64,000 bases of DNA from an uncultured Rhodospirillaceae bacterium (GCA_913043025.1 CAJWLM010000001.1:62001-126000), one strand, 5' to 3'. Counted from the first letter of the stretch, positions 23,867-35,861 are shown. The notes: generated by a model from the letters alone, not told the origin. A program made the numbers and translations.

Positions 23867-24715
23867 ATGGGAGAACTCAACGGAAAAATCTTGGCATTGA
23901 CCGGAGGCAGTAAAGGCATTGGTCGAGCCGCAGTCGAACTATTTGCAAAAGAGGGTGCGGCAATTGCTATGTGCGGGCGCACTGCTGACACTCTTAATCG
24001 CGCAGCAAAAGAATTGCGGGAACGATATGGTGCGACGGTATTGCCTATTGTAGCTGATATCATGGATCGAGAATCGGTGGATGCGTTTACTGCTGAAGTT
24101 GGCGAGACCTTCGGGCGAATAGATATGCTTGTCAATAATGCAGGCGAATCAGAACAGCATAAAAGTGATAAGATTGTTCGCCCTGTTTTATCGGAAGACC
24201 CCGTTGGGGCTTCATATTTGCCAGCCAGTCGGTTTTCTGAAATGGATGAAAAAGAATTTCAAGTTGCTTTTGAGCGTAAATTTTTTGGAATGTTGCGTGT
24301 GACCCAATCAGCGCTTCCTTGGATAAGGAAAGCCAATTCAGGCAGCATTGTGAACATTACCTCTACAAAAGGTATCCAGCCGGGCCCACGCACGGCTACA
24401 TCAGCAATAGCTTGGGCGGCATGTATGAATTGGACTCAAGGATTATCGCTTGAGCTTGGACCCGAGAATATCCGTATTAATATAGTGTCTGTCGGTGGGA
24501 TAGTAACACCTAATCTGATGAGCGCGTATGAACGGTGGGGCAAAGGTATGAGTGAAGAAGAATACTTTCTACCACGGACGCAAAATGTCCCTCTTCAGCG
24601 ATTAGGAACAGCAGAAGAGGTGGCAGAAGCGATCTATTTTCTTGCATCTCCTAGGGGCGGCTACGTCACTGGTCAGTGCGTTGCGACGGATGGAGGCGGC
24701 GTGCGGGTGATTTAA
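23867..24715 (+). CDS. Atypical short-chain dehydrogenase/reductase (catalytic Tyr and Lys replaced)
   Basis: 282 residues. The cofactor motif TGGSKGIGRAAVELF, the following CGRTADTL (Arg suggests NADP) and LVNNAGESE are normal for an SDR. The expected Y-x-x-x-K site falls in PGPRTATSAIAWAACMNW, which has neither residue, while the Ser in NITSTKGIQ is kept. The C-terminal LASPRGGYVTGQCVATDGG is typical. An insertion of about 30 residues follows NNAG. A GAGAGGGAC site precedes the ATG. It is the first plus-strand gene before the selenoprotein pair, 164 bases upstream. Confidence 0.82.
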   Translation: MGELNGKILALTGGSKGIGRAAVELFAKEGAAIAMCGRTADTLNRAAKELRERYGATVLPIVADIMDRESVDAFTAEVGETFGRIDMLVNNAGESEQHKSDKIVRPVLSEDPVGASYLPASRFSEMDEKEFQVAFERKFFGMLRVTQSALPWIRKANSGSIVNITSTKGIQPGPRTATSAIAWAACMNWTQGLSLELGPENIRINIVSVGGIVTPNLMSAYERWGKGMSEEEYFLPRTQNVPLQRLGTAEEVAEAIYFLASPRGGYVTGQCVATDGGGVRVI

Positions 24716-24879
24716 ATTCTATTTTCTGATGAGATTTCGATCCATAGAATTATCTGGTTCATCAATATCAGGTTGAAAACGTTGTTTGGCTTTATTGCGC
24801 AAATAGGGGGCTTTTCGATTTAGCTGCGGGCATGCTAAATTTTAATTCTTTCTGGTTTAGGTTGAGAGGAGGACTCGCA

Positions 24880-26598
24880 ATGGACATCTATGACCCCTCG
24901 AGTGCAACGGAAATAACCGAACTATATTCACCGCGTTTGAATAGTTTGGATGGAAAGAGAATTGCTTTACTTTCGAATGATAGTTGGCAGGCCCATCGGA
25001 CATTGCCGTTGGTAGGCGATATGCTGAAAACTGAGTATCCTTCCATTGAAATAATACCATATGAGGAATTTCCTATTGGCAATGCTGTTATCGACTCAGA
25101 TGCATCCGTCGTAAGGGCAAAAGAGCTTGCCGTTGACGGCGTGCTAATAGGGAATGCTGCCTGAGGTAATTGTTCTACCGCCTGCGGCCGTGCTGCCGCC
25201 AGATTAGAAGCTTCCAAAATTCCAACTACAATTTTTGCACGCGAAGATTTTGTGGGGGTAGTGAAAAATGCAGTAGCTGGTCTCGGGTTTGACCGCGAGG
25301 CACCTATGGTAGAGTTCCCTATAGATGTATTTTTAATCGAAAGTGACCTCTCTCCTGTCAAAAAAGCAAAAAAGAAATTTATTGATGGGTTTATCAATTG
25401 GAATTCAGCAGTAAGCAATTTGGGATTGCGCAATGCCGAAATGATAAATCTCGTCATTGGAGATGATGAACAAGCGCTAGTTGCGGCGAATAACCTATTC
25501 ATAAAAAATCTCTGGTCGGATGGGCTCCCCATTATACCGCCGACCCCAGATAAGATTGAATGGATTCTTAAAGGGACAGACAGAGCCCGCGATGAAAAAT
25601 TAGGAAAATTCATGCCTCGTGGGGGCATAGTCACTATTGAAACCATTGCTGTCTCACTTGCGATGGCTGGTGGACGCCCGGAGTATTTATCAATTCTTAT
25701 TGCCGCGGTCGAGGCTATCCTTCATCCGTCAATGGATCATGATAAATGGCAGTCAACCTCTGGAATGACTTTTCCTGTTATTATAGTGAACGGACCGGCC
25801 GCTTCGGACATTCGGATAAACTCTGGGTTTGGGTTGATGGGACCAAACCCTCAGGCTCCAGCAGGTGGAATTATAGGGCGCGCGGTAAGATTGATGCAGC
25901 AAAATGTTGGAGGTGCCTTGCCTGGGGTTGGGACAATGGCGATTTTTGGAGCTATGAGATATACAAACGCCGTAATTGCGGAGGCCGAAGATACATTTCC
26001 CGATGATTGGGAAACACATGCCACTGAGTGGCATGGCGTGCCGCGCGGCACTAACGCTGTCTCCGTATTCATCGCTACTGGCGGCGCTAATATTATTCGC
26101 CGTGGTACGGGGAAAGAAACTTTGAATGTCGAAGCCGAGGATAGTCTTCGGCGTATCTCTACGTATATGCAGACGGCTAATCCGCATTACATTCGGGGGT
26201 GGACAGGTGGAACAGCTGGCGCGGTGATAATTTCACCAGTGGTAGCAAAACAATTAGCAAATCTGGGATGGACAAAGACACAGATCAAAGAATTTCTGTG
26301 GGAGAATACTAAAATCGATAAGAACACAGTTATATCATCTGGTCTCGAACAATGGATTAGAGCTTCAACTGATCCTGTAGCTCAGGCTGCCTCAATCGAC
26401 CCATGGCCTATTTGCCAGAGGCCCGATGGTATAATGGTTTTAGTAGCTGGAGGGGCGCATCCCACCCATAATTTCTGGCTGCAAGGAAATGCTTTGACTG
26501 TTGGCAAAAAAATCGTCGAAACGCCCTCTAATTGGACAGAATTGCTTGAGCAAGCCGATCGTGATCTCGGTTGCGCCGACGATGTTTGTCTTGTCTAA
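24880..26598 (+). CDS. Putative selenoprotein 1: UGSC-like domain fused to a large uncharacterised domain (UGA at codon 95 read as Sec)
   Basis: Read through one in-frame TGA (25162-25164) this gives 572 residues. The start is the ATG at 24880, 7 bases after GAGAGGAGG. Residues about 1-190 match the UGSC (seleno)protein layout: a Rossmann-like N-terminus (GKRIALLSNDSWQAHRTLPL), then GVLIGNAA-U-GNCSTACGRAAAR, then a helix and strand (KIPTTIFAREDF). The Sec is followed by Cys at +3 and +7. Residues about 200-572 form a second conserved domain with DGLPIIPPTPDK, GGRPEYLSILIAAVEA, VNGP, NSGFGLMGPNP and RLMQQNVGGALPG, a family I know only as hypothetical. It ends in a Cys-x4-Cys tail (GCADDVCLV). 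The UGA sits at the same place in the paralogue downstream, which argues against a sequencing error. Function is unknown; a redox or metal-binding role is inferred. Confidence 0.85.
25162..25217 (+). promoter_or_regulatory. Candidate bacterial SECIS element of selenoprotein 1
   Basis: Starts with the UGA codon. A 5-bp GC stem (25184-25188 with 25195-25199) encloses a 6-nt loop CGUGCU at 25189-25194, with G and U at loop positions 2 and 3. Two more pairs (CU with AG) follow across a bulged C, and a lower stem UUCUA/UAGAA can close the structure. The loop begins 25 bases after the UGA, within the usual bacterial SECIS distance. Confidence 0.7.
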
Positions 26599-26625
26599 TG
26601 GAGGTATAAGAATGGAGGAAAGTAT

Positions 26626-28356
26626 ATGCCTGAGCTTGAAGTATTTGATCCTACTGGGGCAATAGAAATTGAACAGATTCATGCTGCTCGATTTGCCAGC
26701 CTTGCTGGCAAAAAGATCGGACTCGTGTCGAATGATGAATGGCAAGCTCATCGTACTTTGCCACTTGTTGCGGATTTATTGCAATCGACGTGTAAAGATA
26801 TCGAGGTTCTTGGCTCGGAAAATTTTCCAGTAGGAAATGATCCGATAGACACAGAAGAGCTTGTGAGGGTTGTGCAGGACCTCGAAGTAGATGCAATCAT
26901 AATAGGTAATGCCGCCTGAGGGCGTTGCGCTTCTGCATGCGGCCGTGCTGCCGCTAGACTAGAGATCGCTGGCATCCCCACAGTCTTGCTTGCTAGGGAC
27001 GAGTTTGTGGGAATTATAAAAAATACTATGTCTGGATTTGGATTCGATGCAGACGCGGCGCTCGTAAGTTTTCCAATAGAATTATTTATGACCGAAAGTG
27101 ATCTGTCCTCAATTCATTCGGTGTTTGAGAATTTCATATCAGGCCTTACAACATGGGAACCAAGCGCTTCAGCTATTGGAATCAATAAGGCCCCCAGTGT
27201 GAAGTTAGCTGGCGAAGATTTTGAGGATGTTGCAGCCCAAATTCATAATTGGTTCATGATCAATAATTGGGGAGATGGATTACCCATAAATCCTCCAACC
27301 AAGAAACGGGTTAACAATATACTCCGTGGTACTGACCTTGCCCGTGAGCATGTTATTGGTAAACTTATGCCTCGTGGCGGATTGGTTACGGTTGAGGCAG
27401 CATCGGTTGCGCTTGCAATGGCCGGAGGTCGTCCAGAATACCTATCGGTGTTGTTGGCAGCGCTTGAGGCAATTCTTGACCCCGCATTAAAACATGCTAG
27501 TTGGCAAGCATCCTCTGGTAGTCAGTTTCCCGTTGTCATTGTAAATGGGCCAATTAGTCGCCAAATTCGGCTTAATTCTGGGTTCGGACTTTTGGGATCA
27601 AACCCCCAGCGGCCTGCAGGAGTCTCAATTGGCAGGGCGATTCGTTTCCTCCAGCAAAATGTTGGTGGTGCGGTGCCAGGCATTGGAACTATGGCAATAT
27701 TTGGACCCATGCGTACTACAAACGTTGTTTTTGCTGAGGATGATGAAAACTTGCCAAAGGGATGGAAGTGTTTTGCATCTGACCGTCATGGTTTCCCATC
27801 ACTCTGCAATGCGGTGTCAGTCGTAGCATGTTCGGGTGCCATGAATATTATGCGGCGTGGAACGGGTAAGGAGACTGCTGAAGAAGAAGTAGAGCAAAGT
27901 CTTAACCGTGTGGCACGCTATTTATCTCAGGCCACTTTCCATTATCTTGCGGGATACGAAAAGGGCACACCAGGCATATTAATGCTATCAAGTGTTCTTG
28001 TGGAACACCTTGCAGAGCTTGGTTTCGGTCAGGGTGAGCTAAAGACAGAGCTTTGGAGCCGAAGTCGTATTCCACAAAAAGATATTGATCTATGTGGACT
28101 GTCACAGTGGCTGGAGATGGATGCGAACTCGGTTGTAAAGAACTCAAGCAGCGTTGATCCATGGCCTATCACCGCAGAGCCTGATAACATTTCACTTGTA
28201 GTAGCTGGTGGCGGTCACCCAACTCATAATTTCTGGTTTCAGGCCAATTCTCCATCGGTGGCAGGTAGAAAAATTGAAACACCGGACTGTTTTGATGAAT
28301 TATTAGATGTTGCGGATAGGGAGCTAGGCTGTGGGTCCGATATTTGTTTAATTTAA
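26626..28356 (+). CDS. Putative selenoprotein 2: paralogue of selenoprotein 1 (UGA at codon 98 read as Sec)
   Basis: Read through one in-frame TGA (26917-26919) this gives 576 residues; the start is ATG 26626, 7 bases after GGAGG. It is colinear with selenoprotein 1: GKKIGLVSNDEWQAHRTLPL, AIIIGNAA-U-GRCASACGRAAAR, DGLPINPPTKKR, GGRPEYLSVLLAALEA, NSGFGLLGSNP, RFLQQNVGGAVPG and a final Cys-x4-Cys tail (GCGSDICLI). The two genes are 27 bases apart and so co-transcribed. They have diverged a good deal at the protein level, so the duplication is not recent, yet both kept the UGA; that suggests selection for Sec rather than Cys. Translation requires selA, selB, selC and selD elsewhere in the genome. 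Confidence 0.85.
26917..26972 (+). promoter_or_regulatory. Candidate bacterial SECIS element of selenoprotein 2
   Basis: The same apical structure as in copy 1: stem 26939-26943 with 26950-26954 and loop CGUGCU at 26944-26949. The 17-base core UGCGGCCGUGCUGCCGC is identical in both genes at every codon position, while the bases between the UGA and the core differ. A 4-bp lower stem UUCU/AGAG is possible. Confidence 0.7.
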
Positions 28357-28535: not shown

Positions 28536-30590
28536 ATGTTGAAAAATAAAATTAGCTTAGAAATTGTTGATCGCGTGCCATTTGCAAACGGGTATGAATT
28601 TGGAACGACTGGTCCCTACGAGAAGCTGAAGGGTTGGGCACACTTTGCTGTAGATCCCAAAGGCAATTCTCAAAAGTCGGTAGTCGATATCGACAAAGCA
28701 GCGTTAAACGAAGAGGGGTTAGTAGAATTTTCAGCCGAGTTCTTGATGCTTCTACCAATTAATCCAGACAAAGGTAACGAACGACTTTTTTTCGATTGGG
28801 GTAATCGCGGTAATGTTCGTGCTCTCCAGTTTTTTAATGATGCCCCGCACTCTAACGATCCCATAACAGCTGATGACGCAGGAAACGGTTATTTGATGCG
28901 TCGAGGGTACAGCTTTGTCTGGGGGGCCTGGCAAGGTGATATTTTGCCGGGGGACGGCCGGGTAACAATGAAGATCCCTGTAGCTACCGAAAAGGGGAGT
29001 CCAATCACAGGAATAGTGCATCAAGAATTTATTCCTGGCAGCCCCACAGCATGTTTCGCTCTGTCAGGACGGGCAGCGACACGAAGCCATCCGACTGTTT
29101 CTCGTGATACGGCACAGGCACTCTTGACCAAAAGGCGTTATGCAGAGGGCGAAAGAATTACTATCCCGGAAGAGGACTGGGAGTATGCGCAGGTCATAAG
29201 TGGTGCAGGTGTGTCTGGTGAGACCACGCGCGGGTCCTCTGAAACGGCGATTTTACCGTCCGATGAATTTATACACTTACACGGCGGCTTTCAGCCAGGC
29301 TGGATTTACGACTTGATTTACGAGGCGAGGGATCCACTAATAATGGGATTAGGGCATATTGCAGTTCGCGATCTCGTAGGTTTTTTGAAATATGGCAATA
29401 AAGATTCACAGGGAAATCATAATCCCGTAAAAATTAAAAAAGCTTTTGGATGGGGACGTTCTCAGACTGGTCGCTGTATTAGGGACTTTATCTATCGTGG
29501 TTTCAATTGTGACTCCGGTGGACGTCAAGTTTTCGATGGTTTGTTGCCCCATGTATCTGGCGCTGGAAGGATGTGGCTTAACCATCGGTTTGCGAATGCA
29601 GTTTCTATGGCAGGTCAGCAGTACGAAGATCACTTTATTTATGCTGACAGGTTTCCATTTTCGTATGCTGAATGTGAGGATCATTTAACAGGGAAAACGG
29701 ATGCCATTTTAACACGGCCCGATACAGACCCTCTTGTAATGCATTCGCAGACTGCTACTGAATATTGGCAGCGGCGTGGCTCACTTGTTCACACCGACAC
29801 GCGAGGTAACGATCTCCCTCAGCCAGAAACGGTTCGGATTTACCTTTGGGCAAGCTCACAACATAGTTCGTCACCCATCGATAGTGCGCCAGAAAAAGGT
29901 ATTTGTACTAATTATTCAAATATAGTGACCACTTCGATGATTTTTCGTGCCATGCTTGATGCAATGGATGCATGGTCAACCAATGGGAAACAACCACCTG
30001 ACTCACAAATTCCGACTCGAAAAGATGGGACGCTTATTTCCTACGAGGAATGGCGCGCGCAATTTCCTGATATACCGGCAAATATGGTTCCAACTGAGCC
30101 TGCAAGTCTTAAGTTGTTAGATTTCGGTCCCGGCGAAGACGAGGGGATACTGTCATTTCCACCACAGATTATTGATAATGATGGGTATACGATATTAGTT
30201 CCGTCATCCGACGAGGACGGAAATGATGTTCCCGGTATCCGTGCTCCGATGGTGCAAGCCCCGATGGGAACTTACGTTGGATGGAATATTCGGGCGCGGG
30301 GGCACGGTTACGGAGCAACTTACGAGTTCAATGGAAGCTATATTCCATTCCCTGACTCTCCCGAGGAGCGAGTCTTCACGCATGATCCTAGGTCATCCGT
30401 ACTTGAGCGTTATAAAACATCAGATGAATATATTGCTGCTATTAAGGCAGCGTGTGAACGCCTTGTAGCTGATGGCTTAATGATTGAGGAAGATATCTCC
30501 CAGGCTCTCATTACGGCTTCTAATTGGGGCCGGCCCCGCCATGTGACGAGGCTGCCAGAAAACACATCAAAAGAAAAGACGATGTTCTAA
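28536..30590 (+). CDS. Alpha/beta hydrolase domain-containing protein (large, Abhydrolase_10-like)
   Basis: 684 residues. The serine nucleophile elbow is likely GRSQTGR in FGWGRSQTGRCIRDFIYRGF (about residue 310). The conserved N-terminal NGYEFGTTGPYEKLKGWAHF and LFFDWGNRGN segments and the C-terminal GWNIRARGHGYGATYEFNGS belong to a family annotated only as 'alpha/beta hydrolase domain-containing'. No signal peptide is seen, so it is cytosolic. A hydrolase acting on an ester or amide intermediate is inferred. It follows the selenoprotein pair after 179 bases and precedes the Cox-like genes, all on the same strand. Confidence 0.82.
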   Translation: MLKNKISLEIVDRVPFANGYEFGTTGPYEKLKGWAHFAVDPKGNSQKSVVDIDKAALNEEGLVEFSAEFLMLLPINPDKGNERLFFDWGNRGNVRALQFFNDAPHSNDPITADDAGNGYLMRRGYSFVWGAWQGDILPGDGRVTMKIPVATEKGSPITGIVHQEFIPGSPTACFALSGRAATRSHPTVSRDTAQALLTKRRYAEGERITIPEEDWEYAQVISGAGVSGETTRGSSETAILPSDEFIHLHGGFQPGWIYDLIYEARDPLIMGLGHIAVRDLVGFLKYGNKDSQGNHNPVKIKKAFGWGRSQTGRCIRDFIYRGFNCDSGGRQVFDGLLPHVSGAGRMWLNHRFANAVSMAGQQYEDHFIYADRFPFSYAECEDHLTGKTDAILTRPDTDPLVMHSQTATEYWQRRGSLVHTDTRGNDLPQPETVRIYLWASSQHSSSPIDSAPEKGICTNYSNIVTTSMIFRAMLDAMDAWSTNGKQPPDSQIPTRKDGTLISYEEWRAQFPDIPANMVPTEPASLKLLDFGPGEDEGILSFPPQIIDNDGYTILVPSSDEDGNDVPGIRAPMVQAPMGTYVGWNIRARGHGYGATYEFNGSYIPFPDSPEERVFTHDPRSSVLERYKTSDEYIAAIKAACERLVADGLMIEEDISQALITASNWGRPRHVTRLPENTSKEKTMF

Positions 30591-30852: not shown

Positions 30853-31419
30853 GTGAAATTAGAAAATAACTTCTCCGTCGCCGCTGCGCCGAAGGAGGCG
30901 TGGGCTATCCTTGTTGATGTTGAGCGTGTTGCCCCATGTTTGCCAGGGGCAAAGCTGACTGAGGTTACTGATGACAACGCCTTTAGGGGCAAAGTTGACG
31001 TAAAGCTTGGTCCTGTCAGTCTAACTTTTGATGGCAATGTGAAGTTCGTTGAACGGGACGATGACAAATATTTTGCAATCCTCAAAGCTGATGGCCGTGA
31101 GGCGCGAGGTCGCGGGGGTGCTCAGGCGGATATACAGTTCAGTTTGGATGGAGCAGATGGTGGATCAAATGTAAGGGTGACGACCGATTTAAATTTAATC
31201 GGTCCGGTTGCTCAATACGGCAGAAGTCAGGGAATAGTAGCGGCAGTCTCGGAAGAGATGGTAAGCCAATTTGCTGCGTGTCTTGAAGAGAAGGTGGTTA
31301 GTGGGCAAAAGGTGGAATTTGGAAAGCTAAACGATGCTGGAGCATCAGGTGTAATGATATTTATTGGTGCTTTGAAACGATGGATTTTCAACATTCTCAA
31401 TATTGGATTATCCCGATGA
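30853..31419 (+). CDS. coxG: CoxG-like SRPBCC family protein
   Basis: 188 residues. It begins KLENNFSVAAAPKEAWAILVDVERVAPCLPGAKLTEV, the start of the CoxG/SRPBCC fold, with FRGKVDVKLGPVSLTF following. CoxG proteins accompany molybdenum hydroxylases of the CO-dehydrogenase type and may tether or help assemble them. The start is a GTG at 30853 after a weak AGGGGG site. A hydrophobic or amphipathic C-terminus (FIGALKRWIFNILNIGLS) suits membrane attachment. Its stop overlaps the ATG of the FAD subunit by 4 bases. The 262 bases before it hold no convincing gene. Confidence 0.88.
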   Translation: MKLENNFSVAAAPKEAWAILVDVERVAPCLPGAKLTEVTDDNAFRGKVDVKLGPVSLTFDGNVKFVERDDDKYFAILKADGREARGRGGAQADIQFSLDGADGGSNVRVTTDLNLIGPVAQYGRSQGIVAAVSEEMVSQFAACLEEKVVSGQKVEFGKLNDAGASGVMIFIGALKRWIFNILNIGLSR

Positions 31420-32291
31420 AGCCCCCCGTTTTTGAATATCATAGACCAGAAAGTCTGGACGAGGCACTCGAGCTTTTAGCAACATTAAGTGATGTGAAGA
31501 TTTTGGCGGGCGGGCAATCATTGATGCCGATGATGAATTTTCGTTATGTAATGCCGGCGCACATTATCGACATTAATAGGATAAAAGAGTTGGGTGAAAT
31601 TCATAGAGTGCATGATGGGGTGAAGTTTGGTGCGATGGCCCGGCATGATCAAGCAAAGAAATCAGAAATTATCCTTGAACACTGCCCGCTTATTGCTGCT
31701 GGCATGGAACATGTTGCCCATGCGCAGATACGAAATCGAGGAACTATAGGAGGCTCTCTTGCTCACTTAGATCCGTCAGCTGAATGGCCTGCCCTTCTTG
31801 CTGTTCATGATGCAACGTTACGTGTGCAAAGCAAATCTGGTGAGCGTGATGTGCCCATACTTGAATGGTCTCAAGGTTTCATGACCCCTAATCTTGTAGA
31901 GGATGAAATGCTTACTGAGATTACAGTGGCTATATGGCCTGAAAAGCACGTGTACGGATTTGCCGAGTTGGCACGACGCAAAGGTGACTTTGCGCTTGCT
32001 GGCGCGGCCGTGCTACTTGATTTTGATGGTGAAGTAATATCGCGAGCGGCATTGGCTCTCCTGGGAGTGGAAGTAGGTCCTATTCGTATGATTGACGCAG
32101 AAAACTTATTAGTGGGTGAGATACCGAGCGATGAATTATTTCGCGAGGCGGCAGAGCACGTAACCGTAGTCGCTGGCATAGACGACGTTCACGCTTCTGC
32201 GTCATATCGTAAAAAGGTTGCGTCAGTTATGGTAAGACGGGCACTAGAACAAGCTTCTCATCAGCACAAGAGCCAGGCATTAGCGGCATGA
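31416..32291 (+). CDS. coxM: Molybdenum hydroxylase, FAD-binding medium subunit (CoxM-like)
   Basis: 291 residues. The two FAD-contact motifs are clear: AGGQSLMPMMNFR (about residue 33) and RNRGTIGGSLAHLDPSAEW (about 107). The C-terminal CO-dehydrogenase flavoprotein domain follows. This subunit passes electrons from the iron-sulfur protein to quinone or NAD. The ATG at 31416 overlaps the coxG stop and is preferred over the TTG/ATG codons upstream; its own stop overlaps the coxS start by 4 bases. Confidence 0.93.
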   Translation: MKPPVFEYHRPESLDEALELLATLSDVKILAGGQSLMPMMNFRYVMPAHIIDINRIKELGEIHRVHDGVKFGAMARHDQAKKSEIILEHCPLIAAGMEHVAHAQIRNRGTIGGSLAHLDPSAEWPALLAVHDATLRVQSKSGERDVPILEWSQGFMTPNLVEDEMLTEITVAIWPEKHVYGFAELARRKGDFALAGAAVLLDFDGEVISRAALALLGVEVGPIRMIDAENLLVGEIPSDELFREAAEHVTVVAGIDDVHASASYRKKVASVMVRRALEQASHQHKSQALAA

Positions 32292-32764
32292 CTACAATGC
32301 ATGAGATTACGCTAAAAGTTAATGGCGCAGATTACGCCTGCGAGGTTGAGGGGAGGCTAACTCTAGCCGACTTCCTGCGTCATCAGATTAATCTTACGGG
32401 CACTCATTTGGGCTGCGAGCACGGCGTTTGTGGTGCATGTACAGTATTGGTTAACGGCAAGACGGCACGTGGTTGTTTGATGTTAGCGGTGCAAGCAGAT
32501 GAAGCTGAGATTACTACGGTTGAAGGGTTAGCAGTTAATGGTGAGTTAAATGATTTGCAGCAGGCATTTATGGAGCATCATGCTCTACAATGCGGTTTTT
32601 GTACTCCCGGTATGCTCATGACATTAACGGAATTACTCGAGGAAAATCCCCACCCAAAAGAACAGGATGTGCGCGAAGCAATTTCTGGCAACATCTGCAG
32701 ATGTACCGGCTATCAGGGTATCGTCGCGGCAGCTCTTGCCGTTGCTGAACAGCGAGATTGTTAA
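32288..32764 (+). CDS. coxS: Molybdenum hydroxylase, 2Fe-2S small subunit (CoxS-like)
   Basis: 158 residues with eight cluster-binding Cys in the two expected groups: GCEHGVCGACTVLVNGKTARGC for the plant-type ferredoxin cluster split over two motifs, and LQCGFCTPGM plus NICRCTGYQG for the second cluster next to the molybdopterin. It transfers electrons from Mo to FAD. It overlaps coxM by 4 bases and is followed after 21 bases by a crotonase-type gene rather than directly by the large subunit. Confidence 0.95.
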   Translation: MTTMHEITLKVNGADYACEVEGRLTLADFLRHQINLTGTHLGCEHGVCGACTVLVNGKTARGCLMLAVQADEAEITTVEGLAVNGELNDLQQAFMEHHALQCGFCTPGMLMTLTELLEENPHPKEQDVREAISGNICRCTGYQGIVAAALAVAEQRDC

Positions 32765-32785
32765 AATTTATTGGGGTTATAGTCC

Positions 32786-33523
32786 ATGATTAATGAGCAT
32801 TTGATATTTGAAGAAAAAGCACCATACCTTCACATAACTGTCAATAGGCCTGAAGATGGAAACAAATTTCTTGATGATATGCTTGTATTGTTAGCTGCAA
32901 AAGTTGATGAAGCAACCGCCCAAGGCGGGCTCAGTGGAATCATTCTGAGGGGTGCTGGGACTGATTTTAGCCATGGTCGCGAACAGGTGATTGGGGCCGA
33001 GGGCCCGCCAGTAAATGCCTATGATGCAAGAACTCGTTTTATGGATCGAATCCTGAATGTTTATGAATCATTCCGGAAGTTCCCTTCGCCAATAATCACT
33101 GTGGTGCAGGGCAAGGCGCTTGGCTTTGCGTGTGCACTTGTCGCTGGGTCGGATGTTGCTATCGCAAGCGAAAAAGCAACCTTTGCGCTTCCAGAAATGC
33201 TTCATGGGACGCCGCCTACACTAGCGATTTCTGCACATACTAAAGTTGCCCCAAAGACCGTTGCGCACTTGATCTTTTCGGCCAAGGAAATTGACGCTCA
33301 GCATGCGTTAGCATCTGGCTTAATAAGCCAAGTCGTTTCACATGGAGAATTAGAGAAGACTGTTGCTGGATTTCTTGAGGCATTAGGAAAATTTGACCAA
33401 ATTGATATAGCTACTGTTAAGAAATACATTGCTGCCGCCCCGGGATTACCGGCTGACATCGCGTCTGATTTAGCGGGATATACTATGGCAACAATTAAGT
33501 CTCGCCACAGCACCTACAAGTAA
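32786..33523 (+). CDS. Enoyl-CoA hydratase/isomerase (crotonase) family protein inside the Cox-like operon
   Basis: 245 residues. The crotonase fold is shown by LSGIILRGAGTDFSHG (first oxyanion strand) and SPIITVVQGKALGFACALVAGSDVAIAS with the second oxyanion Gly. The usual catalytic Glu pair is not obvious: the region reads ALPEMLHGTPPTLAI, which keeps one Glu. The substrate is probably an acyl-CoA linked to the product of the Mo hydroxylase. It lies between coxS and coxL with 21- and 10-base gaps, so it is part of the operon. Confidence 0.85.
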   Translation: MINEHLIFEEKAPYLHITVNRPEDGNKFLDDMLVLLAAKVDEATAQGGLSGIILRGAGTDFSHGREQVIGAEGPPVNAYDARTRFMDRILNVYESFRKFPSPIITVVQGKALGFACALVAGSDVAIASEKATFALPEMLHGTPPTLAISAHTKVAPKTVAHLIFSAKEIDAQHALASGLISQVVSHGELEKTVAGFLEALGKFDQIDIATVKKYIAAAPGLPADIASDLAGYTMATIKSRHSTYK

Positions 33524-33533
33524 AAGGCCGTAT

Positions 33534-35861
33534 ATGTCATCTTTTGGATCTTCAGCTAAACGTGTAGAGGACCCGGTACTCTTGAGGGGAGAGGGCAAGT
33601 TTACGGATGATATTCATTTGCCGGGCTTGCTGACTGCCGCGATGCTGCGTAGCCCTTACGCGCATGCCCGTATAAAATCTATTGATACTTCAACAGCTCT
33701 GGAACTGGATGGTGTTCACCTCATTCTAAAGAACGCAGATCTTGCGCTTGAGTATACGACTACAGAGTTGCCATTGATGGTGCCAAACCCCTTAATCACC
33801 AAGCCCGTAACACCTCATATGTTGGCAAAGGATTATGTAAGATATGTTGGCGAACCTATTGCCTTAATTGTGGCTGAAGATCGCTACATAGCGGAAGATG
33901 CCTTGGAAAGAGTAATAGTCGATTATGAGCCATTGCCCGTAGCTGGCGATTTTCGGGAAGCTGTAAAGAGAAATGCTGCCACAGCTCATCACGAGATTGA
34001 GGATAATGTTTGCGCGGAATTTGTTCAGGCATTTGGGAATGTGGACGAAGTTTTTGCAAATGCGCCTCACATCTATAAAAATACATTTTTTCAGCACCGT
34101 GGGGCAGCCCATCCGCTTGAAACACGTGCAATGATGGCAACTTATGATGAATTGTCAGATCATCTGACATTTTATGCAGCAAGTCAGTCGCCGCACCGTG
34201 TTAGGGAGATTTACGCAAAATTACGTGGAATAGATGACAATCAGGTGCGTGTTGTTGTTCCTGATATTGGGGGTGGCTTCGGGGCGAAGGGGCAAACCTA
34301 TCCCGAATATTTTTCTGTTGCTGCTGCTGCCAGGTTGCTACGGCGACCGGTGAAATATATGGAAGACAGACGTGAAAATTTTACAGCTACTCATCATGAG
34401 CGTGATCAACTTTGGACGGCTGAGATCGCGTTCAATGATGATGGTAAACTTCTAGGGTTTCGTGGAACTCTTCTTCATGATTCTGGAGCGTACGTGCCAT
34501 GGGGTATCATCACACCATACATCGCCGCATCCACCGTACCTGGTCCATATCTTCTGCCCGCTTATGAAATGAAGGTTACCTGTGTTCTCACCAATAAGGT
34601 GGCCGTCACACCTGTAAGGGGAGCCGGTCGTCCTCAAGCTGCTTTTACAATGGAGCGCATGATGGATACGGCGGCCCTGGAATTAGGCCGGGACCCCGCG
34701 AGTCTCCGCCGTCAAAATTACATCCCTGCCGATCAAATGCCTTACAAAATGGGACTTATATTCCGAGATGGAAGTCCAATTACCTATGACAGCGGTGACT
34801 ATCCCGCTTGTCACGATAAAGCTATTGAATTATCCGAATATGATAGTTTTAAAGAGAGGCAAAAGGCAGCGCGTTCAGAGGGTCGATTTATAGGAATAGG
34901 AATTGCCTCTTATGTTGAAGGAACTGGATTAGGACCCTTTGAGGGTGCAAATATTAGGGTCGCTCCATCGGGGAAAGTTACTATCCATTACGGGGCCTCC
35001 GCACAAGGGCAGGGACATCAAACCGTCTTTGCTCAAATTGCTTCAGACCAGCTAGGAGTTGATCTGGCTGATATAACGGTAATCGGTGGTGATACGCAGG
35101 GCTGTCCATACGGAATAGGCACCTTTGCAAGCAGAGCCATCGTTAATGCGGGTAATGCGGTTCACCAGGCATCTGAAGCCGTTAGGCAGAAAATCATTAA
35201 AGCGGCTTCTTATATGATGGAAGCTGCTGAGGAGGACATGGACCTCGCTGAAGGTTCTGTGTTTGTGAAAGGCGTTCCCAAAATGTCCAGAACATTAGGA
35301 GAGGTTGCTGAATTTGTTAATGGTAAACCGGGCTTTACGTTGCCTGGTGGTATCGAGCCGGGATTGCAGGAATTAAGTTATTTCACACCTAAACAGGCGG
35401 CCTATGCTAATGGAACACACTTAGCCGAGGTAGAGGTGGATGTTGAAACTGGTTATGCAAAGGTTTTGCGATATTGGTCGGGACATGATTGTGGAAAGAT
35501 GATCAATCCAATGACGGTTGAGGGGCAGGTTTTGGGTGGGGTTGCGCATGGGCTCGGCAACGCTTTATTCGAATGGATGCGATACGACGAGAATGCTCAG
35601 CCAGTTACAGTGAACTACGGAGAATATTTACTTCCGTTAGCAAGTGACATGCCCCATGTTCAGCAAGTCCATCAGGAAATTCCAACACCACAAAATCCAC
35701 TCGGCGTTAAGGGTGCTGGGGAGGGCGGTACTATTCCAGCTATTGCGGCCATAATTGGTGCTATTGAAAATGCATTAAAGCCTTTTGGTGTTCGTATTTC
35801 AGAAGCTCCCATAACTCCGCCTCGATTATTAGAATTAATAGAATGTGCTCGTAAAAATTAA
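33534..35861 (+). CDS. Molybdenum hydroxylase, molybdopterin-binding large subunit (xanthine dehydrogenase family, CoxL-like)
   Basis: 775 residues, the normal length. Cofactor segments: VVVPDIGGGFGAKGQTYPE (Mo-pterin contact), TPVRGAGRPQAAFTMERMMD, YGASAQGQGHQTVFAQIASD and GVKGAGEGGTIPA, whose Glu is the catalytic base. The active-site loop is VRGAGR, like the so-called form II proteins (AYRGAGR), and not the AYRCSFR of true CO dehydrogenase, so this is probably a hydroxylase or dehydrogenase of an aldehyde, heterocycle or acyl compound. The Mo-insertion genes coxDEF are not in the window. Confidence 0.92.
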   Translation: MSSFGSSAKRVEDPVLLRGEGKFTDDIHLPGLLTAAMLRSPYAHARIKSIDTSTALELDGVHLILKNADLALEYTTTELPLMVPNPLITKPVTPHMLAKDYVRYVGEPIALIVAEDRYIAEDALERVIVDYEPLPVAGDFREAVKRNAATAHHEIEDNVCAEFVQAFGNVDEVFANAPHIYKNTFFQHRGAAHPLETRAMMATYDELSDHLTFYAASQSPHRVREIYAKLRGIDDNQVRVVVPDIGGGFGAKGQTYPEYFSVAAAARLLRRPVKYMEDRRENFTATHHERDQLWTAEIAFNDDGKLLGFRGTLLHDSGAYVPWGIITPYIAASTVPGPYLLPAYEMKVTCVLTNKVAVTPVRGAGRPQAAFTMERMMDTAALELGRDPASLRRQNYIPADQMPYKMGLIFRDGSPITYDSGDYPACHDKAIELSEYDSFKERQKAARSEGRFIGIGIASYVEGTGLGPFEGANIRVAPSGKVTIHYGASAQGQGHQTVFAQIASDQLGVDLADITVIGGDTQGCPYGIGTFASRAIVNAGNAVHQASEAVRQKIIKAASYMMEAAEEDMDLAEGSVFVKGVPKMSRTLGEVAEFVNGKPGFTLPGGIEPGLQELSYFTPKQAAYANGTHLAEVEVDVETGYAKVLRYWSGHDCGKMINPMTVEGQVLGGVAHGLGNALFEWMRYDENAQPVTVNYGEYLLPLASDMPHVQQVHQEIPTPQNPLGVKGAGEGGTIPAIAAIIGAIENALKPFGVRISEAPITPPRLLELIECARKN

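Follow-up and report, generated by a model that had tools for sequence, protein, structure and literature searches.

Two adjacent open frames, A and B, lie on the plus strand of a 64,000-nucleotide stretch of DNA (hereafter the window; G000:C1:62001-126000), each interrupted by a single in-frame TGA. The locus raises the question of whether these codons are read as selenocysteine (Sec) and, if they are, what kind of protein is being made in duplicate. The window belongs to a 3.08-Mb, 97% complete genome, whose nearest named relatives are Rhodospirillaceae MAGs. Frame A extends from an ATG at 24880 to a TAA ending at 26598 (572 amino acids) and is preceded by the ribosome-binding-like sequence AGGAGG (24867-24872); frame B extends from an ATG at 26626 to a TAA ending at 28356 (576 amino acids), behind GGAGG (26614-26618). 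The TGA is codon 95 in A (25162-25164, motif GNAA-U-G-N-C-STAC) and codon 98 in B (26917-26919, motif GNAA-U-G-R-C-ASAC). A reading made from the sequence alone had described these as adjacent paralogues in which frame and homology continue past the TGA, and both frames and alignment were as claimed: the two read-through proteins align end to end with 50% identity, their TGA codons fall in one column, and they share the motif GNAA-U-G-[NR]-C-x-x-x-C-GRAAARLE. The predicted splitting by gene callers was also observed. ORF calling broke frame A into 24832-25164 and 25252-26598, and called 26986-28356 on frame B. TGA is the normal stop of 17 of the 51 ORFs in the window, and hence there is no genome-wide change of code; a code in which UGA means Trp or another residue throughout was ruled out by this count together with relatives that carry Cys, not Trp.

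The N-terminal part of each product belongs to the UGSC family. PF24696 matched residues about 1-178 of A (24880-25413; 64.3 bits, 1.9e-17) and the corresponding region of B (26626-27168; 71.5 bits, 1.2e-19), both over the Pfam gathering cut-off of 25. The family link proposed by the sequence-only reading thus stood, while the literal motif did not, A having UGNC and B UGRC. The two proteins differ from known UGSC proteins (PF24696, NF041046) in this motif, in their tandem duplication and in their scores with the equivalog model NF041046, 38.9 bits for A and 47.3 for B, which lie under the NCBIfam cut-off of 125. The same model gave 149.5 and 113.2 bits with two split UGSC proteins of the same genome (loci L067 and L068, respectively). 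We refer to the fused subfamily of the tandem pair as type A. A second, divergent fused subfamily, type B (L073, L074, L075, L077, L078), is about 30% identical to type A and has a Cys immediately before the Sec (CUGSC/CUGAC).

The sequence-only reading had named absence of selABCD from a complete genome as grounds for refutation, and this test did not refute it: selA, selB, tRNA-Sec and selD were all found. The genes for SelA (5.6e-174), SelB (1.6e-132) and tRNA-Sec (71.2 bits; identified by ARAGORN as tRNA-SeC, anticodon tca) lie side by side at C4:29084-32685. selD (3.3e-92) is located on C2 within a 754-aa protein that contains a Pyr_redox_2 domain, an Ndh-SelD fusion in which an NDH-like flavoprotein domain is joined to SelD (L072:6152-8416, G000:C2).

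Retention of the UGA was examined in relatives. The TGA was kept in 28 of the 28 full-length type-A genes read, which range from Alphaproteobacteria to a betaproteobacterium, and no replacement of Sec by Cys was seen within type A. Three genomes of the window's genus and two of another genus carry the tandem pair with the same TGA, in separate MAGs (L021, L044/L069, L022, L023/L070), and it recurs in about 17 relatives with a single copy, drawn from Alphaproteobacteria, a 'Lambdaproteobacterium' and a betaproteobacterium. A tree places the A and B copies in separate, fully supported clades, and each clade includes both genera; the duplication therefore predates the divergence of the genera, with Sec retained in both copies ever since. 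Compared with the near relative G002, dN/dS of gene A was 0.25 before the UGA and 0.07 after it, and that of gene B was 0.21 and 0.059. A conserved-TGA screen against the same genome found non-coding frames conserved too at that distance. The earlier argument that both copies are under selection for Sec is supported by the UGA kept in relatives and by the strong purifying selection after it.

A conserved hairpin 3' of the UGA, which had been suggested as a check, was found in A, in B and in relatives. Over 216 conserved residue columns, identical codons were in excess by a mean of 0.07 (sd 0.13); the gene's maximum, 0.47, fell at residues 100-107, immediately after the UGA. Encoded there is the hairpin GCGGC-CGUG(C/U)U-GCCGC, about 20-37 nt past the UGA, present as GCGGC-CGUGCU-GCCGC at 25184-25199 in A and at 26939-26954 in B. 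In split and type-B relatives, a 6-9 bp hairpin that differs in sequence occupies the same place, for example GCCCGC-CGUGUU-GCGGGC and GUCGUGGA-GUU-UCCAUGAC, and it is weak in the Cys homologue L122. The folding energy of the two 55-nt stretches was no better than that of shuffles (z -0.63 and +1.55), and changes in the stem among type-A genes are confined to one side, with none two-sided. Since the simple hairpin score of A and B is equalled by 24% of the other positions in both genes, it is codon conservation and the other subfamilies that carry the case for a SECIS, and together they make the hairpin a probable bacterial SECIS.

Cys-for-Sec homologues, also sought at the suggestion of the earlier reading, were found in distant relatives. 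Five genomes in a 398-genome draw from the phylum contained UGSC. The split forms of G200 and G334 have Cys at the Sec site ('SDCGSC' and 'VHCGSC'), and selA was over the cut-off in neither genome. selA was present in G196 and G368, which carry Sec forms, and in G001, G002, G005 and G009; G053 has Sec-type genes but gave no selA match, in a genome that is only 77% complete. Public plasmids supply further Cys forms: those of Variovorax boronicumulans and Neorhizobium are fused, and others come from haloarchaea, Roseovarius and Variovorax. Two Cys-type genes appear damaged. One in G334 (L125:6700-7400) has a frameshift and a further in-frame TGA, and is a decayed or mis-assembled copy; the fused form on Neorhizobium galegae pNgVX (HCSTC; L131:5731-7399) is apparently frameshifted and annotated as two overlapping hypothetical proteins.

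These computed recoding signals support the identification of A and B as real selenoproteins. That the UGAs are true stops, leaving pseudogenes or two pieces made through downstream re-initiation, would agree with the splitting of both frames by ORF callers and with a plasmid annotation from Acidovorax sp. T1 that ends such a gene at its UGA, but is hardly credible, because the first in-frame starts past the UGA (GTG at 25252, TTG at 26986) would lose the most conserved stretch, CGRAAARLE, both sides of the codon are under purifying selection, the TGA persists in 28 genes, selABCD is intact and relatives have Cys replacements.

The C-terminal two thirds of A and B constitute a separate domain, a feature overlooked by the sequence-only reading, as were a published report of such a fusion and the likely relationship to GrdB/PrdB, both described below. 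This partner domain spans residues 192-572 of A (25453-26595) and positions 27214-28353 in B, and ends in both with a C-terminal CxxxxC. The remaining 380 residues of the protein, which it comprises, had no match in Pfam, NCBIfam or PDB. Its model is of high confidence (pLDDT 89.2, pTM 0.91), and the structure search gave only weak matches (a cyanuric-acid-hydrolase type at E 0.13; best VIA Z 5.0), so that no fold was assigned. Across 38 partner domains, D214, G215, P217, P221, T252, G305, G333, R334 and E368 (copy A numbering) are invariant. When the same 398 genomes were searched with the partner alignment, it matched exactly the five UGSC genomes, and the two domains were fused or adjacent wherever read. 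UGSC and partner therefore form, as far as tested, an obligate pair, whether in one chain or in neighbouring genes.

Split gene pairs contain the same two domains in adjacent genes and occur in the window genome (L067 and L068), in Roseovarius THAF8 and on haloarchaeal plasmids. They differ from A and B in being two chains, not one, with either Sec or Cys, and their partner mostly has a conserved Cys (AGC) where fused type A has AGG. In the window genome, one pair of a stand-alone partner and a Sec-UGSC gene follows closely on selABC at C4:33403-35019, and a second is located at C6:8717-10229. At the first of these loci (L067:7048-13025, G000:C4), selA-selB-selC is followed by a CMD/AhpD-like gene, the stand-alone partner domain and the Sec-UGSC gene, selenoprotein genes thus being attached directly to the Sec machinery. 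In G368 (L126), a UGSC/partner pair adjoins selB.

UGSC was described as a major selenoprotein family, among the most abundant selenoproteins of ocean metagenomes, in the 2008 survey of Zhang and Gladyshev (PMC2398784), which also reports a 'UGSC/Unknown_1 fusion'. This kind of fusion was therefore already known, likewise with Sec in UxxC and with the UGSC domain fused to a second domain, and the partner domain of A and B is probably its 'Unknown_1'. The survey proposes a thioredoxin-like fold for UGSC, from which the model obtained here differs.

As modelled by AlphaFold (mean pLDDT 79.9, whole chain), the UGSC domain has a five-stranded Rossmann/flavodoxin-like fold, in which the Sec begins the helix that follows the third main strand. 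Among the VIA matches listed, it resembles receiver and B12-binding Rossmann-like chains with Z of 9-11, and thioredoxin was not among the 50 matches listed for the UGSC part. A Foldseek search of PDB with the whole model gave no match at E 0.001. A profile comparison by hhalign aligned UGSC with GrdB/PrdB-like proteins of the same genomes over 139 columns, Sec on Sec (P 91, E 9.5e-7), with a score of 48; the best of eleven control families scored 19. Furthermore, the next-best NCBIfam models after UGSC's own were GrdF, GrdB, GrdH and PrdB in 8-10 of 16 members (best 2e-4). A profile match to succinate dehydrogenase flavoprotein (4e-5) was confined to 57 residues of an enzyme with no relation to UGSC and was discounted as a chance similarity. 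These comparisons point to a likely distant relationship between UGSC and the GrdB/PrdB Sec domain.

GrdB, GrdF and GrdH (of glycine, sarcosine and betaine reductase) and PrdB (of D-proline reductase; PF07355/TIGR04483) share with UGSC the UxxC Sec site and about 140 aligned columns, and the Grd system is thioredoxin-linked, a further likeness. In contrast, only the region of the Sec domain aligns, and PF07355 did not match the A and B proteins at E 0.001. The UGSC partner is a domain without a significant family match, and the UGSC system occurs in marine alphaproteobacteria and, as Cys forms, in haloarchaea. Searches for GrdA and GrdE gave no match here, and the controls were likewise without a match. 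As a separate observation, the window genome contains a second tandem pair of putative selenoproteins, which are GrdB/PrdB-like with the motif UPNCTR (L113:4041-5928, G000:C3, minus strand); similar UPNC/UPQC copies are found in most near relatives.

Thioredoxin functions recur around UGSC genes. An N-terminal thioredoxin-like domain with CxxC is fused to the partner in L068, L122 and L126, with the best support in L122 (TIGR01068, 4e-5). Genes for flavoproteins resembling thioredoxin reductase (TrxR; TIGR01292, 1e-67 to 1e-121) were detected at 8 of 27 split or type-B loci, 1 of 25 type-A loci and 0 of 43 other loci, the last being shorter on average. On annotated plasmids, the order partner-UGSC-trxB is seen in Roseovarius, and trxB lies near the pair in Variovorax SRS16. 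In the window, the tandem pair itself has no thioredoxin or TrxR gene as a neighbour.

The tandem pair is embedded in a conserved gene cluster. Upstream is an SDR oxidoreductase gene (23867-24715), and downstream are genes for an alpha/beta hydrolase (Abhydrolase_10, 28536-30590; PF20091, 4.1e-35) and for CoxG-like, FAD (CoxM-like), 2Fe-2S (CoxS-like), enoyl-CoA-hydratase-like and molybdopterin (CoxL/XDH-like) proteins (30853-35861), all on the plus strand. This last group was assigned from PF06240 (CoxG-like), PF00941 and PF02738, with the CoxS-like and enoyl-CoA-hydratase-like genes recognised by inspection. The order is the same in both genera: GST-like, TauD, SDR, A, B, Abhydrolase_10, CoxG, CoxM-like, CoxS-like, enoyl-CoA-hydratase-like, CoxL/XDH-like, SDR. 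Its gene content resembles that of a pathway for breaking down an organic compound. At other loci, the pairs adjoin transporters of the TRAP or TTT type as well as CaiB and MmgE/PrpD-type enzymes. The duplication that gave A and B is old and the two copies have stayed together in this catabolic-looking cluster; they thus probably act on related substrates or form a heteromer.

These neighbourhoods bear on what the selenol does. Binding of a metal or metalloid, a role suggested for certain other selenoprotein families of recent date, would make use of the soft ligands offered by the UxxCxxxC cluster and, in A and B, the C-terminal CxxxxC. We regard this alternative to substrate reduction as improbable, given that the neighbourhoods read showed no recognisable metal resistance genes and that the thioredoxin/TrxR association suggests turnover. 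Somewhat less improbable, though still unlikely in our estimation, is that A and B are selenoproteins of a different kind, with UGSC as a thioredoxin-like oxidoreductase or a peroxidase-type repair protein rather than a substrate reductase of the GrdB/PrdB type. The 2008 survey and a 2026 review (PMC13188914) both place UGSC among thioredoxin-like folds, the latter listing it without a function; UxxC is also a thioredoxin-type motif, and thioredoxin and TrxR neighbours would suit general redox repair. On the other side, the predicted fold resembles receiver and B12-binding chains, the profile similarity is to GrdB/PrdB, and an obligate partner of 370 aa in catabolic, transporter-rich neighbourhoods is unlike general repair.

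The explanation that we favour as a whole, and consider fairly probable, is that A and B are recoded, two-domain selenol reductases, related to GrdB/PrdB, fed by thioredoxin and maintained as duplicates in a catabolic cluster. SelB, guided by the hairpin just 3' of the codon, would insert Sec at UGA codons 95 and 98, and each product would then be a single chain of two domains that are made elsewhere as two neighbouring proteins. The UGSC domain would present its U-x-x-C-x-x-x-C redox motif on a fold of the Rossmann/flavodoxin type, and the partner domain probably carries the substrate site, with the invariant Arg334 and Glu368 (copy A) as candidate residues. Because the fold of the partner is unmatched, its enzymatic role is a guess. 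The selenolate of UxxC may attack the partner-bound substrate, as Sec does in GrdB, after which a Se-S bond would form with the Cys three residues on. Thioredoxin would restore the selenol, and could itself be fed by the TrxR-like flavoprotein or, in some relatives, be replaced by the fused thioredoxin domain. The fused form would keep the halves together, and the C-terminal CxxxxC of A and B may relay thiols. We infer this reductase chemistry, the path of electrons and any division of labour between A and B from the observations above.

More tentatively, and with rather less than even confidence, we propose that UGSC and its partner represent an undescribed selenoenzyme system driven by thioredoxin and TrxR, a branch of the glycine/D-proline reductase superfamily in which the Grd/Prd partners were replaced by a new enzymatic domain. 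This system would serve organic-acid catabolism in marine bacteria and, in its Cys form, haloarchaea, and in two genera would have been duplicated into the fused tandem pair. New here are the exact co-occurrence of both domains (in 5 of 398 genomes), the recurrent association with thioredoxin and TrxR, and the distant kinship with GrdB/PrdB accompanied by a predicted flavodoxin-like fold. An obligate partner, a thioredoxin/TrxR link and a connection to the GrdB/PrdB superfamily provide a concrete, testable biochemical hypothesis for UGSC proteins.

Genes of this type are truncated by standard annotation. On the Acidovorax sp. T1 IncP plasmid (NZ_CP021650; L127:5929-6219), the public annotation of a fused Sec-UGSC gene covers the first codons only and ends at the UGA, the remainder of its 557-aa read-through frame carrying no annotation.
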